DNA from: Amphiura filiformis
Lineage: Eukaryota; Echinodermata; Ophiuroidea; Amphilepidida; Amphiuridae
Length of the DNA: 64,000 bases
NCBI RefSeq assembly: GCF_039555335.1
Contig: NC_092640.1
Location: 40,530,295 to 40,594,294, forward strand
Direction of reading: 5' to 3'
Shown: piece by piece, positions 18,664 through 64,000 of the stretch
How the letters are laid out: the number at the start of each line of letters is the position of its first letter
Numbering within the stretch: the first letter of the stretch is position 1
Program-made: the position numbers and the translations under genes
Notes under the pieces: model-generated
Database searches by the model: none
What the model was told of the DNA's origin: nothing
Seen by the model: only the letters and a program-made list of their open reading frames with translations

Positions 18664-18812
18664 GATAATATTGGAAGGCTTATATCGCATAATACCATAA
18701 CATATCGGATTCGTCATACAAATATCGAACTCGCCGTTGGCTCGTCCGATATTTATATGACTCATCTGATATGTTATGGTATCATGCTCAGCCATCCAAT
18801 ATTATATCAATA
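18664..18812. repeat. Palindromic MITE-like hairpin
   Basis: The arms of about 70 nt pair across ATACCATAACATATC and its inverse. It starts about 15 bp beyond the donor of the SRCR exon at 18827-19150, so it lies in the very beginning of that intron. Confidence 0.55.
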
Positions 18813-18826
18813 TCGTAAGTACATAC

Positions 18827-19471: not shown

Positions 19472-19792
19472 CAAAGTTACAAATGACCCCTGCATCTTCA
19501 TAGTGGTTGCAGTTATGATTTCCCCATCCACTATGCCTGCATTCATCTAAACCACTATCAAATCCTGAACAACGTACATCATCCAGCCATATTTGTCCAA
19601 TTCCCTCTCCAAACTGAGCATCGCTAACAGCTTGTGCATCACCAGATGGAAATCCAAGTTGACGACAAACTACCACTGCATCATCATTATCCCATGAGTC
19701 ATCACACACTGTACCCCAAGTATCATTGTAAAATACTTCCACTCTGCCTTCATATGAATTGCTGCCACCAACAAGACGGACTTGACCAGGAT
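19472..19792 (-). CDS. Gene B exon 3: first SRCR domain
   Basis: A 321-bp phase 1-1 exon, SRCR domain beginning [16 protein letters not shown]. Motifs [35 protein letters not shown] and EDAGVIC give six cysteines, group A-like. The acceptor is TTATTTAG and the donor TTTG|GTATG. The 31-bp nearest block-two counterpart match extends into the downstream intron. SRCR domains mediate protein or microbial-surface binding (family knowledge). Confidence 0.93.
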
Positions 19793-21399: not shown

Positions 21400-22185
21400 A
21401 TATCAATAATAATAAAAAAAAAATTAATATTTTTGATTATTATTGATATTGATATTGATGTTAATATTTTTGATTATTATTGATATTGATGTTAATATTT
21501 TTGATTATTATTTGACATTGATGATAATATTTTTGATCATTATTGATATTGATGTTAATATTTTTGATTATTATTGATATTGATATACAGTGTCCGAAAT
21601 AAGGAAAATATGGAGGTTATCCCGAGGATAACTAAAGCATAAATTCTGCTTGTCCTCAATACATTTTGGTTGTCCCCAAAATGTGTTATATACTTGGAGG
21701 TAAAATATAGTGGTTGTCCAGGGGATAAGTACATAGCTCAATATGGTTGTCCCCAGTGATTTTTGGACAAGAGGACAAGAGGATAAGTGCTTATTTTGAA
21801 CACTGTTGATATAAAAGTTTGGATTATTATTGATATTGATTTTAATATTTTGATTATTAATGATATTTATATTAATTTTTTTTAATTATTATTGACATGT
21901 GTAATATTTTTGATTATTATTGATATAGATATTAATAGTTTGGATTATTATTGATATTGATTTTACTATTTTTGATTATTATTGATATTTATATTAATTT
22001 TTTTGATTATTATTGATATGTGCAATGTTTTTGATTATTATTGATATTGATGTTAATATTTTTTGATTATTATTGATATAGATATTAATAGTTTGGATTA
22101 TTATTGATATTGATTTTAATATTTTGTGATTATTATTGATATTGATATGTTAATATTTTTGATTATTATTGATATTAATATTTTT
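21400..22185. repeat. AT-rich minisatellite, unit about 30 bp
   Basis: Many copies of TTTTTGATTATTATTGATAT followed by TGATGTTAATA variants, in tandem. It is interrupted by the hAT-like element at 21588-21805. Confidence 0.85.
21588..21805. mobile_element. Non-autonomous hAT-like element with 8-bp target duplication
   Basis: The ends are CAGTGTCCGAAATAAG and, inverted, CAGTGTTCAAAATAAG. The flanking octamer TTGATATA is repeated exactly at 21580-21587 and 21806-21813. CAGTG termini and 8-bp duplications are hallmarks of hAT elements. The element is 218 bp with no coding capacity. Confidence 0.82.
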
Positions 22186-22189
22186 GAGG

Positions 22190-26539: not shown

Positions 26540-26830
26540 GTGTATATATAATGAAGGTTTGTTAATAAAAATAATATGCAAATAAGCTCATTAATATTCA
26601 TAAATATGCAAATAACATGCCACAAAACTATACAGCACATTAGGCCACTATATACTATTACAATACCAAGTTAGAAGTTGATCTGTTATTGCGTTTAAGC
26701 TGCAGAGTGGATTAATGAAAATGTAGGCAATATATGCAAATAAGCTAATTAATATTCATAAATATGCAAATAACATGACACAAAACTATACAGCACACCA
26801 GGCCACCATATCCAATTACCAAACCAAGTT
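26540..26830. repeat. Tandem repeat rich in ATGCAAAT octamers
   Basis: Two copies of a unit of about 180 bp contain ATATGCAAATAAGCT and TATTCATAAATATGCAAATA, followed by ACAAAACTATACAGCAC. The same family occurs three times at 55300-55740. Confidence 0.6.
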
Positions 26831-26992
26831 TGATATAAAATTGGACGGATTGAGTGTGATACCTGAATTTATCGGTCGAGCTAGAGTTTTCAAATATCAT
26901 GCGAGACGAAGTCAAGCGTGATATTTGAAAACTCTAGCGAGATCGATAAATTCAGGTATCATGCGAAAGTATCCGTCCAATTTTATCATTAT
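26826..26992. repeat. Palindromic hairpin, arms about 75 nt
   Basis: ATAAAATTGGACGGAT and TGATACCTGAATTTATCG on the left are mirrored on the right, with TTTCAAATATCA and its inverse near the loop. MITE-like. Confidence 0.65.
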
Positions 26993-45492: not shown

Positions 45493-45728
45493 CATTAATG
45501 ATGGGAAAGCTGGACTAAGTTGCCTTGCTGCCCCTGTGTGATTTTCAATTGGTGTACGAAGACTGAGTTGCGCTACTTTGTACGACGATGTTGTAGGTTT
45601 CGCTTCATAAGGTGAGTTTCGAGCCTTACGTAAACAAATACAGCACAAAACACATAAGATAGCAGAAAGAGCAAACAAACAAACCACAATCGCAGATCCG
45701 ATTCCAATCAAAGCTGCCGTTGACAGAC
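45493..45728 (-). CDS. Gene A exon 18: transmembrane helix and start of cytoplasmic tail
   Basis: AATACAG acceptor (phase 1) and ATG|GTAAGT donor (phase 0) bound 236 bp. The exon starts GLSTAALIGIGSA, runs through a helix of about 25 residues with a Cys-rich end (CVLCCICL), then the basic stop-transfer RKAR. The tail that follows has NSPYEAKPTTSSY and QLSLRTP, with Ser/Thr/Tyr that could be phosphorylated (inference). The juxtamembrane cysteines are possible palmitoylation sites (inference). If not spliced, the frame stops nine codons past the donor at 45469. The next exon was not found. Confidence 0.85.
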
Positions 45729-46042: not shown

Positions 46043-46165
46043 CTGTACAGGTGATTCCATCTCCTTCAAAACCACTGTTGCATTCACATGTGAACCCTCC
46101 ATCAGTGTTAGTACATTCAGCATTCACATGGCAGTTATCCAACTCCTTCTCACATTCATTGACAT
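46043..46165 (-). CDS. Gene A exon 17: calcium-binding EGF domain
   Basis: A 123-bp phase 1-1 exon with complete acceptor (GTGCTTCAG) and donor (CAG|GTATGT). It encodes DVNECEKELDNC, then [12 protein letters not shown] and GFEGDGITC: six cysteines, a D-V-N-E-C calcium signature and the C-x-N-x(4)-F-x-C-x-C hydroxylation-type motif. It lies at the 3' side of the 113-bp array and joins to the transmembrane exon. Confidence 0.88.
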
Positions 46166-46246
46166 CTGAAGCACAAATGCATTTCATTGAATTATAAAAG
46201 AAGCCTAGCTATTAAAATAAGGATCATAGTCATTTTTATTTCCGTT

Positions 46247-46964
46247 TGTTAGTACATGCAGCATTCACATGGCAGTTATCAAACTCTATTACATACCTGT
46301 ACAGGTGACTCTATCCCCTTCAAAACCACTGTTGCATTTACAAGTGAACCCTCCATCAGTGTTAGTACATTCAGCATAAACATGGCAGTTATCAAACTCT
46401 ATTACATACCTGTACAGGTGACTCCATCCCCTTCAAAACCACTGTTGCATTCACATGTGAACCCTCCATCATCAGTGTTAGTACATACAGCATTCACATG
46501 ACAGTTATCAAACTCTATTACATACCTGTACAGGTGACTCCATCCCCTTCAAAACCACTGTTGCATTCACATGTGAACCCTCCATCAGTGTTAGTACATA
46601 CAGCATTCACATGACAGTTATCAAACTCTATTACATACCTGTACAGGTGACTCCATCCCCTTCAAAACCACTGTTGCATTCACCTGTGAACCCTCCATCA
46701 GTGTTAGTACATGCAGCATACATATGGCAGTTATCAAACTCTATTACATACCTGTACAGGTGATTCCATCCCCTTCAAAACCACTGTTGCATTCACATGT
46801 GAACCCTCCATCAGTGTTAATACATTTTGCATTATGGCAGTTATCAACTCTATTACATACCTGCACAGGTGACTCCATCCCTTCAAAACCACTGTTTCAT
46901 TTTAACCCTCCGTCAGTGTTATTACATTCGGTATTCACATTACAGTTATCAAACTCTATTACAT
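46247..46964 (-). repeat. Tandem array of truncated EGF exon copies, unit 113 bp
   Basis: The donor-containing motif ACCTGTACAG or ACCTGCACAG (plus strand) recurs at 46295, 46408, 46524, 46637, 46750 and 46859, plus the flanking full exons at 46041 and 46965. Spacing is 106-116 bp, mostly 113. Each internal unit holds the EGF exon from DNC onward plus GTATGT, but lacks the D-V-N-E-C start and acceptor. The junction between units is GTATGTAATAG. Copies at 46859 and 46750 are more decayed. Confidence 0.85.
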
Positions 46965-46966
46965 AC

Positions 46967-47086
46967 CTGCACAGATGACGCCATCCCCTTCAAAACCGCT
47001 GTTGCATTCACATGTGAACCCTCCATCAGTATTAGTACATGCGGCATTCACATGACATTTATCAAACTCCTCACATTCATTGACAT
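46967..47086 (-). CDS. Gene A exon 16: calcium-binding EGF domain
   Basis: A 120-bp phase 1-1 exon with acceptor TATGCTTCAG and donor GCAG|GTATGT. It encodes [23 protein letters not shown] and GFEGDGVIC. It is the 5' intact end of the truncated-copy array. The intron sequence before its acceptor is nearly the same as that before exon 17, so whole-exon duplication came first. Confidence 0.87.
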
Positions 47087-47129
47087 CTGAAGCATAAAAG
47101 CATTTCATTGAATTATCATCATATTACTT

Positions 47130-49790
47130 TATTAACAAACAAGGTTAAAAAGCACACACAAAACCCAGGACATGGCCAACATGCCAGTGCAAAACAACAG
47201 CATGGACCAATGCAGGAAAACGAAGCAAAAACAAACAATTACATACAAGAAATGCATAAAAATCATTTAAAAGAGCCAACAAACATGATTAAACAATGTT
47301 CAATTTGAGGTGTTTGAGGTCATCCCACAAGGGCTCTTTCCTACAATTCCAAATGCTGTATGAGCCCAACAAAGCTAGTTTAGAAATGTCATTGGTGACC
47401 TTTTTGTTGAAAGTAGCTTTGCAAAATTTGAAAAAGGAACGCACACGAGAAACGTTATCTTTACTGACCAGGCCACGAGAACCAACCTCAAAACAAACAA
47501 GATCTGTTTTCACACCCCCCATGTTAAGATCAGAAAGAAGACCGGCATATTTGTTTTGCTTACGATCATGAGATGTTTTTATATTTTGTTCAAAAGGAAC
47601 AGTGAGTTCGGCAATCAAAGCCTTTTTGGCAGATTCATTATACAAAAATATGTCCGGGCGTTGAGATGTAGGCAAAATATTTGGAGGTATTGTACACCCG
47701 GAAGAGGTCATGCCCTTGATGTCCGCAAAAACCTTCACATCGTCGTTTTTAGAAAGGGAGATCAAACACTGAACAATGTGGATCAGGATCGAATCGTGTC
47801 TCCAAGTATACCTCCCTTGCTTAAGTGACTCGGAACAATTATTGAGAATGTGGTGTAAAGTCTCTTTGTTTTTGCAGAGCGGACACCGAGCATTACCCCG
47901 CTTGCCCCAGGTTTTTAGATTGGAAAGGGTAGGCAAGAAGTCGATGGAGGAGCGGACAGCAAATGACAAGACCCCTTTGGGAAGATCATAATTATAGAAC
48001 GCCAGTTAAGATCAGATTGTTCAGCACATATAACCTCAAGCATTCTCCCTTGTTGTAATAAGGGACGAACATAGTCTCTCCAATAGTCCGTGCGATTGTT
48101 TTTGAGAATGCTTTGAATGGTCTTTTTGATGGCGGACCATCTATTTGAAGGTTGAATCTCAATAGCGTCAGTAACAATTGAATTGCTAGTGCGAATACCA
48201 TTACGGGCCATCTTTTTTGTCCACTTCGATTCGCGTTCTAACTTGGACTGAAGCGCATTCTGCACACGATCATCAGCGAAGGTGACTGATCTACCGTATA
48301 GGAGGGTATGGCTTTCCAGATATATGTCCGATATGCGTTTCATATTCAAGCCATCTGGACTGAAAATGATAGCTGGAGTTGGCCCACAAGGTTTCATTTG
48401 GAGCCAAGATTTGATGGCGTTCGTATGGGTATGATCAAGGGTTTCGAGCTGAGAGTCGGTGAGTTCATGAGTCATGAGAAGATACCGAATAGATGGGATT
48501 GAATATTCGGTATAGATCCTAAGCTTGAACTCATTGCGAATTAAGGATGAGTTGATGTTCTCAATCATTGCAGACAACTTGGATTTCACCACCTCGAAAT
48601 GATCACTGGTTTTGTTACATAATGTTATTAAACACCAAGAAACTTTTCCGGAGCATCTTTAACGGACTTCAGCCTGTGTTCACCAATGGAAAACTCAATC
48701 GCTACTGGTTTGCCACTGCAAATAGAGAGAGATTTACACTTGACAGGCTTCAAGGTGAGGTTCATGGTCGAGTTATATGAGCAAGTTCATTCATTAATCG
48801 CTGGGGGGTTCTTTTGTGAGTCGTAATTAAGCAAAAATCGTCGGCGAAAGGAAGAGTTATGTATTTTGTACCATTTAAATCATAGCCATACTGGGATTCT
48901 AAGTTCTTAAGATGTTGAATTATTGGGTTGAAAACAGTTAAAAAGATGATTGGTGAGAGGGATCACCTTGAAAAACTCCTTTTCTGAAGCGGAAGGGTTC
49001 GGAAGACCATGATGGGCCTTTAACTGTTCCATCGAGGGAGTCATACAGACGTTAAACATACTGGACGACCGGAGGTGGGATTCCATTCCTCTGAAGAGTA
49101 TAAATGATCAGAGAATGTTCGACGGAGCCGAACGCATCAGCAAGATCAAAGTAGGTAATGTGAGCAGTGCGTTTTTTGGCTTTGGAATGTGCAATAAGCT
49201 CTCTCATCACCATGGTATGTTCTGCACAACCATTTATTCCGCGCAAAAAAGCCTTTTGCGTTTCAGGGTCTAAGAGTCCGTTCTTGGTCAGGTAATTTGC
49301 CATACGCTCAGCAATAATCTGATGGTAAATTTTTGCAATACACGATGTCAGGGCAATCATTCTAAAATTCTCAGGTTTTGCAGTGTCACCTTTTTTGTGA
49401 ATTAAAACAACTGAGCTAGAAGACCAGGATTCCGGAGGATCTCCAGACTCAAGGAGCTTACTGAACAAAGTACTAAGAACTAGTACTTGGCAGTTTCTTG
49501 ATAAAACCATACATAATCCCATCAGGACCAGGAGACGATGTCACATTTTTCTTGTTGACAATGGCACGAATATCTTTAGGCCGTATAGGAGAACTGATAG
49601 GTCAAACTGATTATTAGGCTCTATAGTTTCAGTAGGAAGATATGGAAACCAGTTTAACTGCGTCATGTTAATGGGTTTTGGAACAGAGTAATTCGACGGG
49701 TAGTATACATCAGCGAGTTCTTTAGTAAAGGTAGGTTGCTCGGGGTTCTGGTCAAGAGAAGCCTAATAAAAATAATAAGGATCATTTTTG
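47130..49790 (-). mobile_element. 5'-truncated RLE-type LINE (R2/NeSL/HERO group), inactive
   Basis: Several minus-strand frames together give a non-LTR retrotransposon. They hold SSPGPDG (about 49521-49540), reverse transcriptase with YFDLADAFGSVEHSLI (within 49052-49522), FADDF catalytic box (48834-48850), a C-terminal zinc knuckle CPLC...HHILNNC (47838-47895), and a restriction-like endonuclease with QRPDI, ELTVP and KQNKY (47545-47668). RT plus C-terminal RLE defines the R2-like group; HERO is common in echinoderms (family knowledge). Frame breaks near 49050, 48960 and 47970 show that it is dead. It sits in a gene A intron, same strand. Confidence 0.85.
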
Positions 49791-50200
49791 ACCTCCTCTA
49801 GCAAAATTCATTTTCCTGGCCACTGGTAACAAAGCATAAATGCACGTCCAGTTTTTAATTTAATTGCCAACAGGCCTTTTCAAGTTGGTCTTGCTATATT
49901 CATGACCACAAATGACAGACTTCATAGAAGTCTACAACCACAACCTACCACAGAGACTATGTCACTCTTCTTCAAAAAGGTAAATTATTCTTTTTTTATG
50001 CCTTAATTTGGATTTTCTAAAATCTAGTTTCTGACAATATAAATTCTCAAAGAGTTTCACAGGTAAACGTATTTCAGTCTTACTAATAGACCATATAATT
50101 CACCTTTTTGGTAAATCCCATAAGCTGCTGTATTTCGATCCCAGATGTCATCATGCTGATGCACACATCCTTACTGCCCACTTCATGGCATTGAAATGCG
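49791..50200. other. Intron sequence, nothing recognised
   Basis: AT-rich stretch between the LINE and the GGAATAGAGAACC array in the gene A intron. No exon is visible. Confidence 0.4.
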
Positions 50201-50227
50201 CAGTAACAATATTCACACATTGGTATA

Positions 50228-50575
50228 GTGGAATTGATATTTGGAATAGAGAACCTTTCTCATATTCGGAATAGAAAACACAGTGACTTGTTTCAGAATA
50301 AAGATCACCTTTATTCGTTTTCGGAATATTCGGAATAGAGAACCATTTTTCATATTTGGAATAGAGAACCTTTCTATTTTCGGAATAGAGAATCTGTTTG
50401 TGTTTTGGGAAGTTTCGGAATAGAGAACCTTCGTAATAGAGAACCGTTTTTTCGGAATAGCGAACCTTTAATTACATTCGGAATAGCGAATGGTAAAATT
50501 ACACGTTCTGAAAGGCGAACCTTTTGAATAGCGAACATTCGGAGCGGCGGACCTTCGGAATAGCGTGCACATCAG
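50228..50575. repeat. Degenerate minisatellite of TTCGGAATAGAGAACC
   Basis: The 16-base motif TTCGGAATAGAGAACC and close variants recur about a dozen times with variable spacers, drifting to GAATAGCGAACC toward the end. Confidence 0.7.
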
Positions 50576-50866
50576 GCTGGAGGCTGTCACAATGTAGTTA
50601 TCTACACTGTATGTAGCATACACATTTTGTCACAGCCAGGGCCATATTTACCTTTTTCATGGCCCTGGGCCAGGCTAAAATTTAGGGCACTTGCTATCTG
50701 GCTTATGTGTTACTCCCCACCCAACCCCATGTAACCTAGATTTGTTTTGACTATGATCATGCATGTAGGACTCACAGTGCAGGGATTCATGGGTGGGAAG
50801 TGAGAGTAGATCTAGCTCTGACTCTCACTTTTCCTGCATGCATTTATCCATGTACTGTATGGTACC

Positions 50867-51055
50867 CGTACTCCATGGGTACGGGTACCCATCCCGGGCC
50901 ATGAGTACGGGAACGGGTCCCAGTTCATGAGTACGGGTACGAAACCACGAGTACGGGTCAGAAGCCAAAATAAGGCGTGAGTACGGGTACAGGTACGGAG
51001 CCATGGGTACGGGTACGTGTACGGAAATTGGGACTCAAGTACGGGTACTACAAGT
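50867..51055. repeat. Minisatellite of GAGTACGGGTAC beside an exon donor
   Basis: GAGTACGGGTAC and ATGGGTACGGGTAC variants recur about ten times, ending about 20 bp below the donor of the two-EGF exon at 51074-51313. Confidence 0.7.
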
Positions 51056-51073
51056 CTGTTGCAAACTACGTAC

Positions 51074-51313
51074 CTTCACACACTGCACCATTTCCAACAT
51101 AGCCCTGGTTACATTCACACATATAGGACCCATCTGTATTACTACATGTAGCTTCCACTGCACATGTACCAGCATTATTACACTCATTGATGTCAACACA
51201 GGCGTTGTACCTATCTTCTTGGTAACCAGTATTACAAACACATTGATATGATCCAAGGGTGTCAGTGCATTCTGCATGCCATGAACACGGGTCTGAAGTA
51301 CACTCATCAATAT
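51074..51313 (-). CDS. Gene A exon 15: two calcium-binding EGF domains in one exon
   Basis: A 240-bp phase 1-1 exon. EGF one starts DIDECTSDPCSWHAEC and has CTDTLGSYQCVC. EGF two starts DINECNNAGTC and has CSNTDGSYMCEC and GYVGNGAVC. All twelve cysteines are present. The acceptor is TATCCCCAG and the donor GAAG|GTACGT. Tandem calcium-binding EGFs form rigid rods (family knowledge). Confidence 0.9.
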
Positions 51314-51904
51314 CTGGGGATAATATGAAACAAAGTTTTACAATTTTTTTTTGCTGCAGTTGTGCTGTTTTTTTCTTTACATTGCAGGTTGTCTGATACA
51401 GAACAGACACAGATAAAGACACACACCAACCCATATGTGTACCACTGGCAAACATACACTTGGTGTTTTCACTATCTACCTTTAATCCGCCTTTTTCACT
51501 ATCCTAATGCTAAATAACCACCCACCTGTGGTCATGGTTTATAACACATTTTGATGCCGTTTTTGATCTAGTAACACCGTCTATAGGAACCGTTGACATC
51601 AGTGGTTCTTGTGCAATCCACTTTTGCACATGCACCAGCCTGAAACGTGGCCATCTATACACCACTTGGATATTTCAGTTTCCACATGCAGACACACACA
51701 TTTGTGTTCTATTCACCTTAAGTCCAAGTGTGGACTGATCCTACACACCCAACCAGAGTCACTGTTTGAAATGCATTTTTATTCTGTTTTTGATCTAAAT
51801 TTATTAACACCATCGTGCATCAGCGGTTAAACATAAATGTCTTATGTATTTATCAGTCCTCATTTCCTTGTGTTAACACCTACACAGGCTTATTGATTTC
51901 TTAC

Positions 51905-52024
51905 TTGTACAGACAGTCCCATCTCCTGCGTAGCCGGTATTACAATAACATACATATGACCCATCTGTGTTGATACATGTTGCTTCTGTATGGCAATCAT
52001 TTGATAGGCTGCATTCATCAATAT
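51905..52024 (-). CDS. Gene A exon 14: calcium-binding EGF domain
   Basis: A 120-bp phase 1-1 exon starting [11 protein letters not shown], with [12 protein letters not shown] and GYAGDGTVC. The acceptor is TTTTTTTTTACTATCAG and the donor ACAA|GTAAGA, with A as the last base as in gene B exon 7. Confidence 0.9.
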
Positions 52025-52084
52025 CTGATAGTAAAAAAAAAACCCACCAACTCTTGTAATACAAATATTCATATTAATTTATTA

Positions 52085-52860
52085 TTACAATTTTTCTGAT
52101 TATCATCCAGTTCATAGCCATCATCACAACCTATACCCTGGTTCCTCATTGGTGCATGGGTGTACTTCTGTCTGTCTATATGTCACTTTGTCTGTATGTC
52201 TACACACCAATGAACCCATCCCTACGTATTCTCTGATCATTATCTATGTCATAGACATCTTCACAGCTACAGCTTTAGCTTTACCCTGGTTCCTCATTGG
52301 TGCATCGATCTGTCCTTCTGTCGGAGTATCTGTCTGTCAGTCTGTCTACATACCAATAAACGCACCTCTACAAGTTCTCTGATCATTATCGAGTTCATAG
52401 CAATCTTCACAGCTGCACCTATAGACGAATCCGACGAGCCACATTCCTACACCTTACTGGCGGCCATAGCTAGGGGCCATCCATCAATTTTTACGCGACA
52501 CCAGTATCATAGGCGTGCAGCGTTTACCGCTCCTGTGACACAGCGCAAGTGTTACGCACTCCAATGCGGTTGCGATAGTGGGTGTCTTGGATCGCAATCT
52601 AAACAACTAAGCTAGTTTGGCGCTGATGGCTCCAAGCTATGGCCAACTTAATCCTGACCATCACTTGGCTCGTCGGATCTATACCCAGGTTCCTCATTGA
52701 TACACGTCTGTCTGTCTACACACCCATATATTCACCCCTACAAGTCTCTGATCATTACAGTATCTAGTTCATAGCCATATTCACAGCTACACCTATATCC
52801 TAGTTCCATATTGGGGAAGGCATGTCTGTCCTTCTGTCTGTCTATACATGCATATACTCA
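52085..52860 (-). repeat. Decayed tandem copies of the 3' part of exon 13 plus donor
   Basis: Four partial copies of the exon tail (encoding EEPGYSCSCEDGYEL-like sequence) plus intron start follow exon 13. In transcript order they lie near 52735-52812, 52685-52700 continued at 52355-52421, 52205-52300 and 52085-52150. Each is followed by the same spacer with GTAGACAGACAGA. The second copy is split by a short inverted-repeat insertion (about 52422-52678, ends ATCCGACGAGCCA). Unit about 150 bp. Confidence 0.7.
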
Positions 52861-52861
52861 C

Positions 52862-52996
52862 CTTCACAAGTTCTCTGATCATTTTCTAGTTCATAACCAT
52901 CTTCACAGCTACAGCTATACCCTGGTTCTTCATTGGTGCATCTCCCATGCTGAACATCACAATCATTAGTGTCATCAGCTGCACACTCATTAATAT
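52862..52996 (-). CDS. Gene A exon 13: calcium-binding EGF domain
   Basis: A 135-bp phase 1-1 exon starting DINECAADDTNDCDVQHG, then CTNEEPGYSCSC and GYELENDQRTC: six cysteines. The acceptor CTAAG is unusual (AAG rather than CAG/TAG). The donor is GAAG|GTGAGT. It is followed 3' by partial copies of itself. Confidence 0.85.
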
Positions 52997-53528
52997 CTTA
53001 GAGACAAGGATAACAAGAATTATTTTGCTTGCTGTAGCCATCTACATCAATTTAAAAAGTATAATGGTAAATGCATACTCAATGAAAGGTCAAATCATAT
53101 CCATTCTCTTTACTTCTATTGGTAATTTGAAATTCTGACTTCATTCAAAAATAGGTTCTTATTGCTGTAATACAACAAGCCCGGGTGGGTACTCAAGTTT
53201 GGATTTGGTAGGGGTGTGCCGCTGGGAATTTGAAAGTGGACCTATCAATATATCAATTTTTCAAGAAAATTTGGACCCATCAATATATCAAAAGTCTAAA
53301 TTTTCAGCCAAATTTAACCCAATTTGTCTTAGTTTTTACAAATTTTCATTAGCATGTATTCAGTGTTCAAAGGGTGACTGTTTTTATGGAGAACTATTGT
53401 CAATTTGTTTGTTTATTGAAAAAGTTCAATTAAGTGTTTGATGCTTTTGTGTTGAAGGACAAAATAATCAGGGTTGCCAAACCTGTGGTGACGCGAAAGA
53501 CAGGTGACCGCTAGTATCGTCAAATTTG

Positions 53529-53558
53529 AATTTTGTTCTGGTATACCAGAACAAAATT
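53529..53558. repeat. 30-bp perfect palindrome
   Basis: AATTTTGTTCTGGTA is followed directly by its exact inverse. Intronic, with no spacer. Confidence 0.8.
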
Positions 53559-53833
53559 ACAACAGTGGCCTATGGAACAGTGTAATACGCATAATCATGC
53601 ATAACTCGCAAACGCAAAATCGGAATCAACTGAAATTTTGGAAATAAGCTTTCTTCGTGGATATCTACTGACAAATGTCATAAAAAGAGGATGCTAGGAT
53701 CACAAAATCCTCTTTTAAATGTGATGACCTCATTTGGTAGTGCTTATAATGTATGTGCGAGGTGAGTTATGGGGGTGTGTGCTAGTCTATGTGAGCATGC
53801 TCAGTCAGTGCACTGAATGCCTATGCCTCTTAC

Positions 53834-53974
53834 CATTGCATGATGTTCCATCATCACTGAGTTCTGCTCCTTGATTGCATACACACTCATCAGTAGTACC
53901 ATCACTACTGCGTACACATTGGCCATATGGTTCACAGGTAATGGTAGTATCAACACAATCTCGACCTGCTTGAA
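53834..53974 (-). CDS. Gene A exon 12: EGF-like domain
   Basis: A 141-bp phase 1-1 exon: VQAGRDCVDTTITCEPYGQC, then DECVCNQGAELSDDGTSC. Six cysteines in EGF spacing, without the D-x-N-E-C calcium start. The acceptor is TTACGCAG and the donor AATG|GTAAGA. Confidence 0.82.
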
Positions 53975-54059
53975 CTGCGTAAGAAGGAAAATAAGACCAG
54001 AATTAAATAAATATTAATTTTAACATCTGCGTATCACACTTTATATGCATTCCAATCAA

Positions 54060-54362
54060 ATTGCTTGTTGTATGTTGTTTGGTGTATGGGGCAACTTTTC
54101 AATAAGACGCTCTAAAAAGGCTTAGGGAAACATTACAGAAACGTTCAAATGTACAAAATATCTTGCTCGCTACACTTGAATAATATATCTGGACCATTTA
54201 AGGTTTGCAATTTTTCGCTAAAATTTGCCATGAGCAAAGGGGGGGGATTTTTGACAGGCTGAGTGGGGGGAGTTCTTTGATTTTTTTAGAAAACCAAATT
54301 TTGGCAAACAGTTTAAAATTTTTGTCTCCTCTCTCCGGGCACTCATAATTATTGCAGACCCT
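54060..54362. repeat. Degraded GGGGCTGTGC-family MITE
   Basis: It retains AGGCTTAGGGAAACATTAC, GACCATTTAAGGTTTGCAAT, a G tract and the right end CTCATAATTATTGCAGACCC. The left terminus is lost. Confidence 0.55.
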
Positions 54363-54428
54363 AACTAAGGATATGACAAGCAAGGTCTCTATTCCAACAC
54401 ATTTCTCTGCCTGATATATGGCACTTAC

Positions 54429-54551
54429 CATCACATGTTAAACTGTCATCGCTTAGTTCAAATCCATCATTGCAGCCACACTCATATCCAGACTCTGTAT
54501 TTATACATACTTGTTCACACTCATCAGTTTGAATATCACACTCATTGATAT
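54429..54551 (-). CDS. Gene A exon 11: calcium-binding EGF domain
   Basis: A 123-bp phase 1-1 exon: DINECDIQTDECEQVC, then TESGYECGCNDGFELSDD and SLTCD. It is near-identical to exon 10, and the intron upstream of each acceptor also matches (AAATCATACAGATAAATCCC), so a unit of about 616 bp was duplicated recently. Confidence 0.9.
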
Positions 54552-55044
54552 CTGTAACAAGAAATCATACAGATAAATCCCATAAATAGTGCCTTCTAGC
54601 ATGCTTTGGTTGGTCATGAAAGTACTTATAACCAGTGATGTAATTCATGATTCTTTGTTTATGTCATGCACATACACACCAATATATATATTGGAAACCA
54701 ATATATATATTGGAAAGCCAAGAGGGGAGGGCAAAGAAGTGCAAGCAAATTTTGGCACATTTTTTGGGGACACAGTGCTCCAGGCACACTATAACTTTGT
54801 TAAGGGTTAGGGCAGGGATTCAGGTAGTGTTGACGATAACTCAATTTTGCTAGGTCTATAATGCAGTGGTGTATGGGTATGAACTGGAAGGTGGTTTTAG
54901 CTCTTGAGTATTTAGATTTTGGAGAGAACTGAGCATGGGGTGTCACATTAATTTAGGTTTTGCAGTTGGCCTGTGTATTGCTCCATTACCCAGAGACAGA
55001 GTTGAGACTGTGGGACAGTCTACTGCCTAATGTATGGCACTTAC

Positions 55045-55167
55045 CATCACATGTTAAATTGTCATCACTTAGTTCAAATCCATCATTGCAGCCACACTCA
55101 TATCCAGACTCTGTATTCATACACACTTGTTCACACTCATCAGTTTGAGTCTCACATTCATTGATAT
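55045..55167 (-). CDS. Gene A exon 10: calcium-binding EGF domain
   Basis: A 123-bp phase 1-1 exon: DINECETQTDECEQVC, then TESGYECGCNDGFELSDD and NLTCD. It differs from exon 11 at only a few residues. The acceptor is TTTTCAG and the donor GATG|GTAAGT. Confidence 0.9.
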
Positions 55168-55299
55168 CTGAAAAGAGAAATCATACAGATAAATCCCATA
55201 AATAGCACTTTCTAGCATGATTTATGTCATTGTTTATGTCTTTGTGATCAAGATGATTTGTAAGATATATAGTAAAGCAGAATTTCACAGTTTGTAAGT

Positions 55300-55740
55300 C
55301 AGGTGGCCCCCACAACAAAGGTTTGTGAATACAAAGAATATGCAAATAAAGTCATCAATATTCATAAATATACAAATAACCTAACACAAACTATACAGCA
55401 AAAGAGGTGTTCATATTCTATCATCCTACCAAGTTAGACATGAATCATTGATTACATGTAGGCTACAGAGTAGATTAATGGAATAAATAACTTGACACAC
55501 AATTAAACAGCACACGGTGATCATACTAAAATCCTAGTACATAGTTTATAGAAGTTATTGGGTGTATGCTGCAGAGTGATTTAGTGAAATTTCAGGCAAT
55601 AATATGCAAATAAGCTCATCAATATTCAGAAATATGTAAATAACTTGACGCAGATCATGACACAGCACATGATGCCACCATACTCTACCATCCTACCAAG
55701 TTTGAAGTTAATCAGTTTTTGCATTAAGGCTGTAGAGTGG
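55300..55740. repeat. Three copies of the octamer-rich repeat seen at 26540
   Basis: ATATGCAAATAAGCTCATC, TATTCATAAATATACAAATA and ACACAAACTATACAGCA recur with a period of about 140-170 bp inside the intron between exons 10 and 9. Confidence 0.55.
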
Positions 55741-55967
55741 CTTAATGATTTTGCTTCAGCCCAACTGTACAGCCGACCAATTATCCCTCTGCACCATGCA
55801 TAACATAATGACGCCACACAACACAATGTTGTAGATGAGCTAAAAATGAGCCGTTGGGAACTGCGCATCCACAATAAAAGCCGTGTAGATTTGGATCCTA
55901 GCAGAATTTTAATCAGTGGTAATGTATTTGAGAATTTCCTGTTTCCATTTTTCAAATATACACTTAC

Positions 55968-56210
55968 CTGTGCATGTTTTTCCATCTCCAATAAACCCAT
56001 CTTGACAACTACATGTATAGCTGCCCTCTGTATTAGTACAGTCAGCTTTAGAGTCACATCCTGCTGTTCTTGAATCACACTCGTTGACATCCGAGCACTC
56101 AGTGCCATCCCCGTCCCATCCTCCATTACAGTTACACTCATAGGAGCCATCTAGATTCCTGCAGGTAGCCATTTCATGGCAGTCATTTGCTCCTAGACAT
56201 TCATCGATAT
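55968..56210 (-). CDS. Gene A exon 9: two calcium-binding EGF domains in one exon
   Basis: A 243-bp phase 1-1 exon. EGF one: DIDECLGANDCHEMATC and CRNLDGSYECNC, GWDGDGTEC. EGF two: DVNECDSRTAGC and CTNTEGSYTCSC, GFIGDGKTC. All twelve cysteines are present. It directly follows SEA domain 2, as in other SEA-EGF surface proteins. Confidence 0.92.
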
Positions 56211-56380
56211 CTGTATGGAGAAACGATATGACATAGTACTACAGATTTTGATGACGTAACTGTTTTTATTTTGTGCAATTCAAAAACATAAGTACCCTAT
56301 TTTTCTGCAATTGGGAGTAGTCACTTTTAAATACATTTATGGTATAGGGAACTTTATTTATGGATAATTACATCACATAC

Positions 56381-56591
56381 CAATTAGTCTGAATGATGGC
56401 TCATCCACTGTAAAGACAGTACTACTAGTCATCAGGTATGTCTTTGTAGCTGTAAGGATTTCATCATCAGTAGCTGTAGATTCATTCTCATCTAATATGA
56501 TGGTGTATACTGCTATAATACTGCCTGGTCTAAACTCTAAAACTTCACAGTCATAAAGCTCTACAGTGTTATCACTAAGTGCAGTCGTTAT
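56381..56591 (-). CDS. Gene A exon 8: C-terminal half of SEA domain 2
   Basis: Phase 0 acceptor (CGGTGCAG) and phase 1 donor (TTG|GTATGT), 211 bp. It encodes ELYDCEVLEFRPGSIIAVYT, with the G-S-[IV]-[IV] motif at which many SEA domains cleave themselves (family knowledge), followed by a beta strand and an acidic stretch (DENESTATDDE). It joins exon 7 in frame. Confidence 0.88.
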
Positions 56592-57124
56592 CTGCACCGA
56601 TAAAATACAAATGAAATCAGAAGTAGACATGCTACATTCTGCATAACATGTGACATAACTGGGCCAATATTTGCATACTTTGTGTACATGAGATAATCCC
56701 CCCATCATCAGGGATGACACCCGGATAGGAGAGGATCCGAAGGATGGGTACATTGAGAAGAAGTTGCTACACACATTGTTAAAAAGCACAACAGTTTTGA
56801 ATGAAAATCTGATGTTCTACACTGCAGAGTAAAGGGAGAGAAGATGGAACTTTTCCGACTTCATTATTTCTTAAGTTTACGCTCTAAAGTATATAAAACT
56901 ATACATTTTGGAAAGGAAATGTGTTCAGAAATTTTATGGTAACATTCGTTCTTTCTTAAAGTTCAGAGTAGAGTTAGAGATATAAAATTTGGGAATGTTT
57001 TAATTTTAAAGATTGAAAAAAAAACCCCCAAAATTGCACATATGGAGACAAAAAAAACCCAATAGTGAACAAAAAGTGAAGTAATACATCAAGAAATCAC
57101 AAATTTGGGTGTGAAAAGCCTTAC

Positions 57125-57252
57125 CTCTGTACACACTAATGTAGCAAGTTGTTCAAATTCTGCTGAATTTGGATCAGAGAGAGCATCAACATACTCAGCT
57201 GGTGTACCCTCTATAGATATTACGATAAACTCTATCTGCAGATACCTGGGTA
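57125..57252 (-). CDS. Gene A exon 7: N-terminal half of SEA domain 2
   Basis: Phase 1 acceptor (TTTGTTTTCAG) and phase 0 donor (GAG|GTAAGG), 128 bp. It encodes VPRYLQIEFIVISIEG, then YVDALSDPNSAEFEQLATLV, matching the first strand and helix of SEA domains (F...Y...L.D..S..F..L). Confidence 0.86.
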
Positions 57253-57816
57253 CTGAAAACAAAAAGAAAGAAATATGAATATTAAATATTTAGACCATAC
57301 TAAAATAAGAGAGACGCTACTTCAATCGCAAAAGTGAGGCCAGTGTGAGTTCGGGACCTTGTGTAAGGGCTAGATGACTCTTGGCCTACGCCATCGACCT
57401 TTGGCCTACATTTGCACTCATTGCAGATGACATCATTCACTCTTACGCTGCCTTTAGTCAGCTTTTAGTTGGCAGACAACGCCACAATAAAAACGTCTTT
57501 TCTCATCTTTTCTGAAGTTGTAGTTATCTCTTTCATAGATTATCTAATTACCTTTTAAAACAAAATGTATGGTAAATTAACCTATTTAGAACAATTTTTA
57601 TAATTTTATTATCGACTTAACCCAGTAATTCTCACTCATTGTGCATGACGATTGACAGCTGCATATCGGTGGTACAAAAAGGCGATTCTCAGACCTTTAT
57701 TACGAAGAGGGCAGTGCACAGTCAACTGTCCTCCGATCCTGACTGACCTGCACTGTTTGTCAAGTACACAGATCGTGACCTGGTCGCTTCGACTTAGATG
57801 TATGCTAATGACTTAC
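57253..57816. other. Intron sequence, nothing recognised
   Basis: Between gene A exons 6 and 7. No exon or bounded repeat is visible; a plus-strand ORF at 57652-57849 overlaps the exon edge and is not credible. Confidence 0.45.
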
Positions 57817-57957
57817 CTACACATGACTCTTTTGATATCTCATATCTGAACCCATCAGCACAGTTTTCACAGTGATAGTCTCCTGGGCCATCATGAACAC
57901 AGTCAATGAAGTTTTTATCTGTACAGATATCTGGATTTTCTACACAGGGCATTATTT
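57817..57957 (-). CDS. Gene A exon 6: EGF-like domain
   Basis: A 141-bp phase 1-1 exon: EIMPCVENPDICTDKNF, then GPGDYHCENCADGFRY and ESCV. It resembles the neighbouring exon 5 in length and cysteine spacing (C-x-x-C in place of C-x-C before the G-[FY] turn), so the two form a duplicated pair placed between the SEA domains. Confidence 0.85.
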
Positions 57958-58391
57958 CTGTATTAAATGAAAGATTTATCATGCAAGAGTGACATGGATG
58001 ATGGGTGCACTTGAGAGATGCACTTGATGCAACCTGCACGCGATACCAAGATGCTTAAGATGGCAGAATTGTTTTCATTCATCTCCGTGCACCGTCGGCA
58101 AGGACCAGAATACCCCCAATTTTCTCCCCATAGCTGATGGTGCGATTGTACGTGGCGGTATAGGAAGTCCCGGTTCTCCTAATTATGTGGAAGTCTTTCA
58201 AAGTGTCACACAAATATGGACCAATGTAACATTAAAATGTTAAAATTTTAGGCCTGTGAAAATTTACCAGGCCCTAATTTCTATTGAACTAGATTTCAAG
58301 TACTGATTAACACCATAAATAACAGATACTGTAGAAGACTATTATGCAAGTGCAGATCACATGACGGTCCGTATGTGTCTTCATTACTTAC

Positions 58392-58532
58392 CTGTACATG
58401 TTGAGGCATCTGTGCTAATTCTATAACCAGTCTCACAATTCTCACATCTGAATTGACCATCGCCTACAAACACACAGTTCACAAAATTTCTGCTATAACA
58501 ATCATGGGTTCCTTCTTCACATGGATTCATCT
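58392..58532 (-). CDS. Gene A exon 5: EGF-like domain
   Basis: A 141-bp phase 1-1 exon: EMNPCEEGTHDCYSRNFVNC, then GDGQFRCENCETGYRIS and STCT. The acceptor is TTTCCATAG and the donor ACAG|GTAAGT. Paralogue of exon 6. Confidence 0.85.
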
Positions 58533-58626
58533 CTATGGAAACAAAGGTTAAAGGTTATGATGCTTGATATCATACTGTATGATATCTGGACTGTCTTTTG
58601 TTCTGACATTTTAGTTCTCCTTTGCA

Positions 58627-59025
58627 TATGTGACCCGCTCTGATGAAACCCGCTCAGCTATTTCGAGATTTGGCAAGTCAAAGTTGGGGAAGGGGTGAAA
58701 AACCTTTCAGATTTGGTTTTTCAATTTTTATTATTTTTTGTTTCCTTAATATGTTTGCTTTAACCTACCAATGAAAACAAAATATTCTTTTATGTCTATA
58801 GCACCCAAATCTAGCATTTTCTGAGTCAAACGAAGTTTTTCTTGCATTTGCCTTTTCTTTATGTGTCGCATCCCCCCTTCTCGTTGAAAAATCGTAGAAT
58901 GAGGACCACATGTCCCAGAAACATAATTTTAGTATCAAATGAAGACCAACACTAAATGATGACATCAAAAACTCAATTTTAAAAATGAGTGACTTATGTC
59001 TAGTTTTGTGGGAGCGGGTCACATA
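58627..59025. repeat. Inverted-repeat element with TATGTGACCCGCTC ends
   Basis: TATGTGACCCGCTC at 58627 is mirrored by GAGCGGGTCACATA ending at 59025. There is no coding capacity; the minus-strand ORF here is spurious. Confidence 0.65.
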
Positions 59026-59277
59026 CATGTTCTGAAGTGTTTTCACTGTGTTCTCAGAGCCCTTGTCAAAAGCAAGTAACCATCCTAGTCCTTCCTAGGG
59101 GGCAAGAGCTCGGTAACCGAAAACAATAGTCCCAGTTGAGAGGATAACAGGGAACCACTGGCCACTTTGCCCCAAGACACACAACCAAGTAGCATCATTC
59201 AGGGATGCAGCTCAACCTTAATCATAATAACCATTGCAAGTATGACCTGCTACCCGAGTGCAGGGGCTTGACCTAAA

Positions 59278-59372
59278 AAACAAAAAAAAAACAAAAAGCG
59301 CCCAGTGATTTATAGTGCGCTTCGCTTTGGCACAACGCCTAGACGTTGATCCACAAGCCTCAGCACATACTT
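59278..59372 (-). repeat. 5'-truncated SINE, same family as 35699-36083
   Basis: On the minus strand it reads TGTGCTGAGGCTTGTGGATC, then GCGCACTATAAATCACTGGGC and a T-rich end, matching the tail of the plus-strand SINE. Confidence 0.7.
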
Positions 59373-59380
59373 ACATCCAA

Positions 59381-59532
59381 ATATTGTCGTTGGGCAGGAA
59401 AAATGTGTTTATGACCCCTGAACATGTTTAAAACAAAACTGCTATAATAAACCGGTTACATAAGAGCTTTTACTTTAAACATGTTCAGGGGCCAATGACA
59501 CATAGGAGGATTTTCCTGCCCAACAACGATAT
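59381..59532. repeat. Short palindromic element
   Basis: ATATTGTCGTTGGGCAGGAA is mirrored at the right end, with CCTGAACATGTTTAAA and its inverse near the centre. Confidence 0.6.
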
Positions 59533-60502
59533 GCAGGATCCAAAAATGCCTATATGGTCAGGTGCATTTTATCCCACTTTTAGCTAGTTAAACATGGTTA
59601 GTAAATATGGAAGATCTGCGGTTACAGGTGTGAGAATTAACCCACAAATTTCCTACGGTACGAGTCCGAGTGACCCGTAAAAATTGAACCAAGCAATAAA
59701 GAGCAGAAAATCCTATTTTTGTTGTTCCGCTGGTTTACATAATACTTCCAGCTCCCTGAGTACACTTTCATTTTAGTTTCCCTTCAAGTTTTCAACCCAG
59801 ATTTTCTATAATCTACATAGCGTGAACGCCATAGCTAATTCTCTCTCTTTAAATTTCACAGGCAAGGGTCCGGGGTCGGACCCTTGAAAATTGGTGAGGA
59901 CCCTTGACATTTCAAAGGCAAGGGTCTGACGGACCCTTGGATTTTTTTTTTTTATTTCGAGGCCTGATGGCAGTGAGGTAAGTTCAGCCCCAAAGCCACA
60001 AGTCTGCAGGACAGGCTGCTCCTAAAACTAACCCTGAAAGTAACCTGTCCATATATTTGTTGTAACTTTGGTTTTATTGTATCAGTGCTCTTAGTGTCTA
60101 GTTATCAGTGGACACAAATTCCAAGGTGGGCAAAATATTGCAAAACGTCCAGTTGTCCTGTTACCAAAATGACTTTACCGAGACGTTTGCACACTAAGTG
60201 CGCGAAAATTTGCAATGTTAATGATGAAATGAGCCAAAGTAAGAATAATCATGGCCTACAAAGGCTACACAGAAGATAAACATCACAAATTTGGTCAATT
60301 TTGTCCTGGTATTTTGGTGGTCGATGTACGCCACTACAAGGCAACATTGCAGGGAGTCTGTTGGGCTGGTTAGGAAAAAAATGTGTTCAAAGCCAAAGTA
60401 GCCCATCTAGGGCAGGCTCTATTTTATACACTGTTTCATGGGGATTACCTACGCAACATACATGTATATCTGCACACCACAACACACACATTTAGTTCAT
60501 AC
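59533..60502. other. Intron sequence, nothing recognised
   Basis: Between gene A exons 4 and 5. It contains an internal direct repeat of AAGGGTCCG/GACCCTTG around 59865-59940 and no supported exon. Confidence 0.4.
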
Positions 60503-60734
60503 CTGGTGAGATGACACTAGCCGATACTACTTGACTATCAGAACCAAGGAACATATCATCACTCAAGCCATCAATCAAGAATGCCTCTTCTATGTCAGAA
60601 ATTTCAACTGTAGCAGACTCTGTAAAATCCAGCCTTATAGTCACCTCTGCTCCATCTGATGTAGGGGTCATTGTCAGTACAGCAGCTCCTAGGAAATCAG
60701 CACTAATACTACTTGCTTGGAAGAGTGATGTCAA
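60503..60734 (-). CDS. Gene A exon 4: C-terminal half of SEA-like domain 1
   Basis: Phase 0 acceptor (CCAATTCAG) and phase 1 donor (CCAG|GTATGA), 232 bp. It encodes LTSLFQASSISADFLGAAVL, then TSDGAEVTIRLDF, which fits the central helix and strands of SEA domains. The self-cleavage G-S step is replaced by D-G-A, so cleavage is unlikely here. An acidic linker follows (ISDIEEAFLIDGLSDDM). Confidence 0.8.
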
Positions 60735-60984
60735 CTGAATTGGGAAATGAAGAATAAGATCAATTTTGAAAATGAGTTTTTTATGTCTCTTGGCTTAACA
60801 TATGCAGACCTGTTTTTCATTCAGTTTTTTCTCCATCTTACTTTTTTACCATCGACTTTTGCTCTTTTCCCCAAAATCACATTTTACTTCTTGTGTCCTT
60901 GTGATTGTCTTCGAGTATCTCTCTCTGTCTCTCCCCTCTCTCTTTCTGTGAATACCTGTGTACCCTTGAATTTCTGTTGTTATA

Positions 60985-62004
60985 TTTAATTCTAGGACAC
61001 AGGTGTATGAGCCTGTAGGTGTACTACACAGAAGCTCCAACCTTAGCTGCTTGAAAACTTTCACAGAGTTGTATACTGCTACCATCCAGGAATTGAACCT
61101 ATAACCTGCGGACTACTATACCAAACACACTTAAATCTTCTGTCAATGCATCTCTATTAGCCTCTGTGTTGACAGTGTCAAACAACCAGACAGGATTGAA
61201 ACCTTTCACCAAGTTGAACAGTGCTACTACTCAGGAATTGAAACTGTAATCTTTAGATCACTTTACCATGTATACTTACATCTTCTGTCAATGCATCTCT
61301 ATTAGCCTCTGTGTTGACAGTGTCAAACAACCAGACAGAATTGAAACCCTTCACCAAGTTGAACAGTGCTACTACTCAGGAATTGAAACTGTATTCTTTA
61401 GATCACTTTACCATGTATACTTACATCTTCTGTCAATGCATCTCTATTAGCCTCTGTGTTGACAGTGTCAAACAACCAGACAGAATTGAAACCCTTCACC
61501 AAGTTGAACAGTGCTACTACTCAGGAATTGAAACTGTATTCTTTAGATCACTTTACCATGCATACTTACATCTGCTGTCAATGCATCTCTATTAGCCTCT
61601 GTGTTGACAGTGTCAAACAACCAGACAGAATTGAAACCCTTCACCAAGTTGAACAGTGCTACTACTCAGGAATTGAAACTGTATTCTTTAGATCACTTTA
61701 CCATGCATACTTACATCTGCTGTCAATGCATCTCTATTAGCCTCTGTGTTGACAGTGTCAAGCAACCAGACAGGATTGAAACCTTTCACCAAGTTGAACA
61801 CTACACCCATTCAGGAATTGAACCTGTAACCATTGGATCACTATACCACGTATACTTACATCTTCTGTCAATGCATCTCTATTAGCCTCTGTGTTGACAA
61901 TGTCAAACAACCAGACAGAATTGAAACCCTTCACCAAGTTGAATACCGCTACTACTCAGGAATTGAACCTGTAACCATTGGATCACCATACCATGTATAC
62001 TTAC
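60985..62004 (-). repeat. Tandem array of exon 3 tail plus donor, unit exactly 145 bp
   Basis: TGTCAATGCA (plus strand) recurs at 61141, 61286, 61431, 61576, 61721, 61866 and 62011, always 145 bp apart; 62011 is the real exon 3. Each unit keeps an open frame encoding VWLFDTVNTEANRDALT-like sequence. The GTAAGT donor is kept in all but the 61141 copy (TTAAGT). A diverged eighth copy lies at about 60985-61130. The unit lacks exon 3's T-rich acceptor; only TAGTAG precedes the open frame. Confidence 0.9.
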
Positions 62005-62117
62005 ATCTACTGTCAATGCATCTCTATTAGCCTCTGTGTTGACAGTGTCAAAGAGCCAGACAGGGTTGAAACCCTTCACCAAGTTGAACACTGCTACCAA
62101 TGAATGAGTTAATGAAG
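62005..62117 (-). CDS. Gene A exon 3: N-terminal half of SEA-like domain 1
   Basis: Acceptor with nine T's and CAG (phase 1) and GAT|GTAAGT donor (phase 0), 113 bp. It encodes ASLTHSLVAVFNLVKGF, then PVWLFDTVNTEANRDALTVD. It joins exon 4 in frame to give a SEA-like fold. It is the 5'-most and only copy of the 145-bp array with a proper acceptor. Confidence 0.78.
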
Positions 62118-62402
62118 CTGAAAAAAAAACCCATATCAGATCTTCATATTATTTTAGTGTAGATTATGCAAACAACACTTCAATCATTTAATAAGTCACA
62201 CACAATATTGGAAACAAAATTTGAATTCATCATTACACTGATCCACGTTTACCGGATAAATCTTATTTATGTTGAAGTTTCTGTTACACCCACTATCACT
62301 CAGAAAGTAGGCATTATTTACAGACAAAATAATAAAATATTTAAATAATGGCATTGTTATTTTCATAATAATCATATCATTTTGAGTACCCTACTTGTTT
62401 TT

Positions 62403-62504
62403 ACCCTAACAAGTTTGTTTGCTTCCCTGTCCTTAGTAGTTTAAGTTTATTTTGGCAGGTTCTCACACTGGAACATGGAATAATTATGTGTGTGATAACT
62501 AACC
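62403..62504 (-). pseudogene. Decayed partial copy of EGF exon 2
   Basis: On the minus strand it keeps ATTCCATGTTCCA, GTGAGAACC, GGACAGGGAAGCA and AACTTGTTAGG in the order of exon 62907-63038, with the middle degraded. The element at 62505-62868 lies between it and the exon. Confidence 0.5.
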
Positions 62505-62868
62505 TTGACAATTGCTTAAAAAGTTACCTTTTTCAGAGTCTTCATTGAGCAGTGACGTAACTCGCGACACCATAGTGATGTTTTGTTTACAATCCTCCGG
62601 TCACATGACCACCCGATGGGTGGTCATGTGTCAGCAGATCATTGTAGATGGCGGGCAGGTCGTATACGGCGTCCCTGTTGAGCGTGGGTCTTTGTATCTT
62701 AATCTTTATGGCTTCCCTGATCTACTTGTTCCAAAAACACACTTGGTCATGTGACCGGAATATTGTAAACAAAACATCACTACGCTGAATGAAGACGCCG
62801 TGATGGTGTCGCAAGCTACGTCGCTGGTCAATGAAGATGAAAAAGGTAACTTTTTAAGCAAATGTCAA
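62505..62868. repeat. Foldback element with TTGCTTAAAAAGTTACC ends
   Basis: TTGACAATTGCTTAAAAAG at 62505 is mirrored at 62850-62868. The arms continue through CACCATAGTGATG and TTTTGTTTACAAT, about 110 bp. There is no coding capacity. Confidence 0.65.
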
Positions 62869-62906
62869 ACATGACAGAGTCCAATATCAGTATCCACACT
62901 GCTAAC

Positions 62907-63038
62907 CTTGACAAGTTAGACTGCTTCCCTGTCTATAGTAATTCATCTGGCATATACATCTATATTCACCAATCCGGTTCTGACACCTTTCATTATTTGA
63001 TGTGGAACATGGAATACTTGTTGCACACTCGTTGATAT
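62907..63038 (-). CDS. Gene A exon 2: calcium-binding EGF domain
   Basis: A 132-bp phase 1-1 exon: DINECATSIPCSTSNNERC, then CQNRIGEYRCIC and SLTC: six cysteines. The acceptor is ATCTTTCAG. The donor CAAG|GTTAGC is weak (GTTAG rather than GTAAG). Confidence 0.83.
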
Positions 63039-63789
63039 CTGAAAGATACAGGGAATCAACAAAATATATGTGGATCAGATAAAATCACCAATGACATAAT
63101 TCAAAGTTTGGCCCAACACTATTGATATTTTAACATATACATGTGAAGGAGTTCTTACAGCTATAGCTATTACAGTGATGCCAGCGCTGCAATTTTAGGT
63201 GCCAACTAGTCTACATTAAACTTGGGTAAAACTGCCCTTATATCTCTGGTGGGTGCTTTTTTTGTTATATTGGGCTACTTCACCGCAACTTGACGAGCCA
63301 ATTCTCCACACCTTGGTATTGGTATTAAAGTTTTGGCAGCACTGAGCTATTAACTATATTTCAAAACTCTCCTCCAGTGGCATAGCCAGGTGTTTTTTTT
63401 TTTGTGTTTGGGGGGTTGGCGTTGCAATGTGCCCTCCACAGAAATTTTCAGGGGTAAAATGGGGATGGCAAATTTTTGACAAAAGACAAGACAAACAAAA
63501 ACCATTTATTATACTTGATACTTGTATTTACAATGTATATCACAATATGGAATGAGTGTCTGGCTAAGTCTCTGTATTCCATTCCAGGGGCAAAAACAGC
63601 TGTGCATTTTCTCTACAACCACTGAACAAGCCCGTTTTTCAAGACATGTGGTGGTTAAAATGTTGATGCAAATGTGTGCCAACCTCATAATTGACCATAG
63701 AAGGCTGGCTACACCCTTGCTCTGCTCTAACCATTTCTCTATGCTGCTATGCTGACTTGGACATTCCTGTCACTTTATACCCATCACAT
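63039..63789. other. Intron sequence, nothing recognised
   Basis: Between gene A exon 2 and the EGF array at the window end. T-rich and G-rich runs near 63390-63420; no exon is supported. Confidence 0.4.
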
Positions 63790-64000
63790 ACCAACACATG
63801 ATGCCATCCCCTTCAAAACCCCTGTTGCATTCACATGTGAACCCTCCATCAGTGTTAGTACATGCAGCATTCACATGGCAGTTATCAAACTCTATTACAT
63901 ACCTGTACAGGTGATTCCATCCCCTTCAAAACCAGTGTTGCATTCACATGTAAACCCTCCATCAGTGTTAGTACATGCAGCATTCACATGGCAGTTATCA
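63790..64000 (-). CDS. Gene A exon 1 of the window: EGF exon within a second 113-bp array, partial
   Basis: Two copies of the same EGF-tail unit as at 46-47 kb. The copy ending at 63903 (donor CAG|GTATGT) reads [15 protein letters not shown] then [16 protein letters not shown] and continues beyond the window. The next, ending at 63792, has a two-base deletion before its donor (TGTGTTG|GTATGT) and lacks a D-V-N-E-C start, so it is probably not coding. The acceptor-bearing end lies outside, so whether the 63903 copy is a true exon cannot be settled here. Confidence 0.6.

Follow-up and report, generated by a model that had tools for sequence, protein, structure and literature searches.

Tandem arrays of exon tails with their splice donors in the introns of one gene of the ophiuroid Amphiura filiformis

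Several exons of a single gene (gene A) of Amphiura filiformis are followed on their donor side by copies of their own 3' part, which carry along the 5' splice site and a little of the next intron. The gene lies in the window analysed here, a stretch of 64,000 nucleotides of contig NC_092640.1. Judging from the letters of this one stretch, the arrays are probably tandem duplications across an exon-intron boundary, which would have expanded locally and be tolerated by the gene as non-coding sequence.

Gene A is encoded on the minus strand and was modelled with 17 exons from E1 (62907-63038) to E17 (45493-45728), its 5' part being located outside the window. All exon borders are AG/GT and the phases agree; when joined, the exons can be read through 901 codons with no stop. 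By this gene structure the window is eukaryotic. In the product, Pfam recognized EGF_CA in 11 stretches and one SEA domain (residues 270-343, E6/E7); E2/E3 share with E6/E7 the phase pattern 1 to 0, 0 to 1 and may represent a second SEA-like domain, for which Pfam gives no such call. A hydrophobic stretch in E17 looks by eye like a putative membrane span, and a search of solved structures with the first 366 residues gave five weak matches to Notch 1 (E 0.0047-0.0086). Whole exons were duplicated as well, namely E15/E16 and E10/E9, the latter together with their flanks (54407-54607 and 55023-55223, 92% identical). A tRNA scan and an Rfam scan of the window returned no match each. The following exons are of relevance here:

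62907..63038, minus strand: exon E1 (EGF), with one faint partial copy 3' of it (exon model, exon-versus-intron scan)
62005..62117, minus strand: exon E2, parent of the 145-bp array (AG/GT borders, fitting frame and phase)
52862..52996, minus strand: exon E12 (EGF), parent of a decayed array (exon model, BLAST)
46967..47086, minus strand: exon E15 (EGF), adjoining the 113-bp array (exon model, frame)
46043..46165, minus strand: exon E16, a close relative of E15 without a downstream array (exon model, exon-versus-intron scan)

The copies found downstream of these exons and at the end of the window are:

62403..62441, minus strand: faint copy of the end of E1 up to the donor (score 38)
61051..62004, minus strand: array after E2, six further 145-bp units (exon tail, donor, intron) and a diverged partial unit
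52087..52861, minus strand: some four decayed E12-tail copies, of which two show a clear donor GT and one is interrupted by an insert (TRF, BLAST)
46247..46966, minus strand: array following E15, with six more units (106-116 bp), each containing CAG/GTATGTAATA, plus a partial unit of 40 nt
63783..64000, minus strand: array at the window end, two E15-family units with an identical unit junction (sequence comparison)

The array after E2 was detected by TRF with a period of 145 and 7.2 copies (61051-62097). It consists of seven ungapped 145-bp units including that of the parent, each combining a 93-nt exon tail with 52 nt of intron, and terminates distally in a diverged partial unit of about 32 nt. 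Differences across the units reach 16%, units 5 and 6 differ at only 0.7%, and likeness does not clearly fall with separation (rho 0.37, p = 0.10). Five of the six further units keep the donor GT, with a score equal to that of the parent, and the last one has lost it. All seven exon parts are open, and variable columns are rarer in the exon part (14/93) than in the intron part (20/52, p = 0.002); this difference rests on the last unit, without which the counts are 14/93 and 11/52 (p = 0.37), and it was therefore rejected as proof of coding use. A weak match upstream of E2 (score 26, with 25 as the highest of 100 shuffles) was not counted.

For the array after E15, TRF gave a period of 113 and 7.4 copies (46247-47069). 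The unit lengths, starting with that of the parent, are 113, 106, 109, 113, 113, 116, and 113 bp, followed by the partial unit of 40 nt. Of each unit, about 103 nt are exon and 10 nt intron, CAG/GTATGTAATA is present in all seven, and the donor score equals that of the parent in each of the six copies. Units differ by up to 12%, and units 5 and 6 show 0% difference outside one 3-nt gap. Two copies are frameshifted, one of them with a stop, and a third carries a 3-nt insertion.

The remaining copies are weaker. Behind E12, TRF reported periods of 146 and 122 with 1.9 copies each, and BLAST aligned copies at 70-81% identity that start at exon nucleotides 55-62 of 135. Two of these four copies show a clear donor GT; it is ambiguous in one that is gapped there and missing from one that ends before the donor. 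The insert that splits one copy (about 52424-52678) has short inverted ends. The E1 copy scored 38, a value reached by none of 2000 order-1 random versions of the intron (highest score, 30). Between E1 and this copy lies an element with inverted ends of 107-125 bp that are 76% alike (62505-62868), which looks like a MITE.

The initial annotation, made from the sequence alone, had described tail-plus-donor arrays after E2, E12, and E15, and all three were confirmed, those of E2 and E15 as strong arrays and that of E12 in decayed form. Its unit lengths of 113, 145, and about 150 bp compare with 145 bp at E2, 106-116 bp at E15, and TRF periods of 146 and 122 at E12. Two further arrays had been regarded as probable, of which E1 retains just the single faint copy, and the one at the window end, whose full exon lies outside the window, turned out to be two units of the E15 family. 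Since the window-end array shares unit and junction with the array after E15, it has no independent origin, and the independent origins first proposed for all arrays are thus reduced to at most four, two of them strong.

To survey the gene systematically, all 17 exons were aligned to the introns on either side over up to 1500 nt, and the scan was repeated at 900 nt with exons masked. Downstream, donor-side partial copies including the exon 3' part were found for 4/17 exons (E1, E2, E12, and E15), and acceptor-side partial copies of the own exon for 0/17 exons in these flanking introns, which bears out the recurrence and the tail-plus-donor anatomy noted at the outset. A match upstream of E16 is the E15 array itself, and matches at E9 and E10 are the flanks of the whole-exon duplication. 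The polarity of 4 to 0 is insignificant when taken alone (two-sided p = 0.125). Compared with 100 shuffles each, the similarity within the arrays reached z values of 98 (E2), 35 (E12), and 94 (E15), which excludes chance.

Enrichment at exons was tested at a score of at least 36, a limit chosen after the score of 38 for E1 was known. A nearby downstream copy was present for 4/17 exons compared to 4/93 tiled intron segments of gene A (p = 0.019) and to 56/551 tiled segments of the whole window (p = 0.094); array-derived stretches were excluded from the tiles, none of which lies above position 63100, and the tiles beyond gene A also cover open frames that belong to other genes. There is consequently a modest enrichment of tail copies at exons above chance, and on the question raised initially, whether random positions are just as rich in such repeats, the outcome is in between. 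If duplications were placed randomly in gene A, 10-12% would be expected on the donor side, 10-12% on the acceptor side, and 72-75% within introns only; with an expected donor-side share of 10-12%, neutrality alone is insufficient to account for the share found.

Apart from gene A, the window contains a number of other repeats and open frames. The only other TRF arrays with a period of at least 100 are longer periods (121-153 bp) of an AT-rich array with a 31-bp unit at 21424-22187. BLAST added local repeats of lower regularity elsewhere, among them one at 9041-9762 (offset about 252 bp, 70% identical) that is tied to no known exon, and a dispersed repeat family has local copies at 55334-55480 and 55598-55747, in an intron of gene A, and at 26554-26839. 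Minus-strand open frames at about 47290-49770, in the intron before E15, resemble by eye a broken non-LTR reverse transcriptase. Further minus-strand open frames at 11444-11821, 18810-19241, and 19464-19826 resemble SRCR domains by their motif; the latter two are similar to each other, as are the minus-strand frames 1908-2252 and 15349-15630. None of the tiles overlapping the open frames 1908-2252, 11444-11821, 15349-15630, and 17373-17720 reached a score of 36.

Acceptors were scored with a model built from the 17 sites of gene A. With each site left out in turn, the real acceptors scored from -0.1 to 16.3, and candidates at the copy starts did not exceed -0.9. In the E15 array, only the AG of the parent scored above 2. 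Each E2 exon-tail unit contains an AG about 28 nt before the donor that scores 3.0-4.3, above four real acceptors. This AG thus falls among the scores of genuine sites and may at times serve as an internal acceptor. Donors are unchanged in score in 11/12 copies after E2 and E15, and use of the downstream donors is predicted to lead to a stop inside the extended exon in all 11 cases tested (six after E15 and five after E2). The gain of an intron would take a usable donor together with a usable acceptor; the copies contain donors, and candidate acceptors at the copy starts are poor.

Compared to their consensus, the six E15 copies carry 8 synonymous and 19 non-synonymous changes and 1 stop, i.e., 29% synonymous on small counts, next to about 27% expected if changes were random and transitions are given an assumed weight of 4. 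For the six E2 copies, comparison with the majority gave 5 synonymous and 10 non-synonymous changes and no stop, again small counts. The copies hence look as if they change like non-coding DNA.

This anatomy is probably best explained by short tandem duplications, with one breakpoint within the exon and the second a short way into the following intron. Head-to-tail copies running from within the exon into the intron next to it are indeed seen at E2 and E15, and at E12 in decayed form. Each duplication would have carried the 3' part of the exon with its 5' splice site and a short piece of intron, leaving out the acceptor of the exon. Two arrays would then have grown by unequal exchange or slippage, with which the near-identity of some neighbouring units fits, and the others would have decayed. 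The last unit of each strong array is an incomplete exon tail, unlike the product of one clean duplication, so that a deletion, a template switch, or some other additional event is needed at the least. The copies would sit in the intron as non-coding sequence, and the gene may tolerate them because the acceptor of the authentic exon is retained and the exon's own donor comes first, so that exon definition and transcription order would work together for the normal junction. A later donor, if used, would bring a premature stop, and an acceptor-side duplication would presumably put a new acceptor ahead of the real one.

The constancy of the donors raises the question of whether they are kept for a purpose. 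The extra donors could serve as decoys that bind U1 or are partly used, so that premature-stop transcripts tune the output of the gene with array length as the dose; the unchanged donor scores and the stop predicted behind every donor tested would suit such a role, which we nevertheless consider unlikely. Among the seven E15 units, the donor columns are invariant (p = 0.014 for all 13 columns, 0.039 when the 10 intron columns are taken, and 0.055 for the 9-base donor), and no other stretch of the unit stays free of variation for as long, yet by run length p is 0.16. With values from 0.014 to 0.16 depending on the measure, donor invariance was rejected as proof of function, even if selection may have kept the donor, as no donor column varies. 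Moreover, the loss of GT from the last E2 copy and its unclear state in 2/4 E12 copies speak against decoys.

A different source may be considered for the array after E15, since five of its six copies are nearer to E16 than to E15 (e.g., 4.6 vs. 11.0%) and the sixth is equally far from both. Accordingly, E15 may not be their source, or E15 may have diverged since, or an E16-like or window-end exon may have been the source. Import from such an exon or from the window-end array, by exchange or by a larger duplication within the gene, would also agree with the junction shared by the two arrays. However, E16 itself has no downstream array, a parent exon diverging under its own constraint would give the same picture, and the parent exon of the window-end array lies out of view, and we regard this origin as distinctly doubtful.

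That the copies serve as alternative or mutually exclusive exons appears very unlikely from their sequence, and the copy-number-variable exons suggested in the initial annotation are disfavoured. The seven open exon parts of the E2 array, their lower variation when all units are counted, and the AG within the E2 tail would be in favour of this use, but the copy starts lack a good acceptor, no AG of the E15 array other than that of the parent passes a score of 2, two of the six E15 copies are frameshifted, and the synonymous share matches that expected without constraint. False tandem copies by assembly error are conceivable as only one sequence was at hand, but are highly improbable, given that the units differ by up to 16% (E2) and 12% (E15) and that the E12 and E1 copies are decayed, unlike duplicated reads.

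In relation to known systems, the arrays of gene A resemble several classes in part. Minisatellites (VNTRs) have units of about 10-150 bp, vary in copy number between individuals, and form head-to-tail arrays of units of about 100 bp with near-identical neighbours. Gene A arrays are alike in tandem unit size (TRF), head-to-tail order, and near-identical neighbours, but begin inside a coding exon, and their units carry a splice donor. Human CBS 844ins68 is a harmless duplication across an acceptor-side boundary. It is likewise short and adds a second splice site, in this case on the acceptor side and with a single extra copy, as opposed to the donor-side, multi-copy arrays of gene A; one report names the 68-bp duplication and cites work on its 3' splice site selection (PMC2630376). 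For the potato RdRp gene, duplication of the intron-exon (acceptor) side with gain of an intron is described in PMC4974935, the Introduction of which refers to Rogers (1989) and Gao and Lynch (2009) on intron gain by tandem duplication. Potato RdRp and gene A have in common a tandem duplication whose breakpoints lie in an exon and in an intron and which brings an extra splice site; in potato, a second acceptor side led to a new intron, whereas in gene A it is the donor side that is copied, several times and with no new intron evident. Whole-exon duplications and mutually exclusive arrays, e.g., of Dscam (PMC4835542), also consist of tandem copies of exon sequence in one gene, and, unlike them, the gene A copies lack the exon head and the acceptor.

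Duplication across one splice boundary is thus already known, and multi-copy, donor-side arrays recurring in one gene look like a new form of it. Among the open-licence literature matches listed, none describes donor-side multi-copy arrays, which does not imply their absence from print, as subscription journals were mostly outside this scope. The unit junction pattern had 0 matches in viral contigs.

In a wider reading of the sequence, exon-tail donor arrays could form a recurrent class of intronic repeats with fixed polarity, in which donor-side duplications survive because the donor made first is always the right one, acceptor-side ones are lost, and array length sets how much correctly spliced mRNA is made. 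We put this forward as a speculative and rather improbable generalization. The arrays of gene A nevertheless are natural counterparts of constructs with duplicated splice sites: at E15, a single acceptor is followed by a row of seven equally scoring donors, of which the first alone keeps the frame. Reads of gene A could tell whether nearness of the exon, transcription order, or exon length decides donor choice. If the donor-side polarity were to hold genome-wide, it would mean that splicing decides which small intragenic duplications survive.
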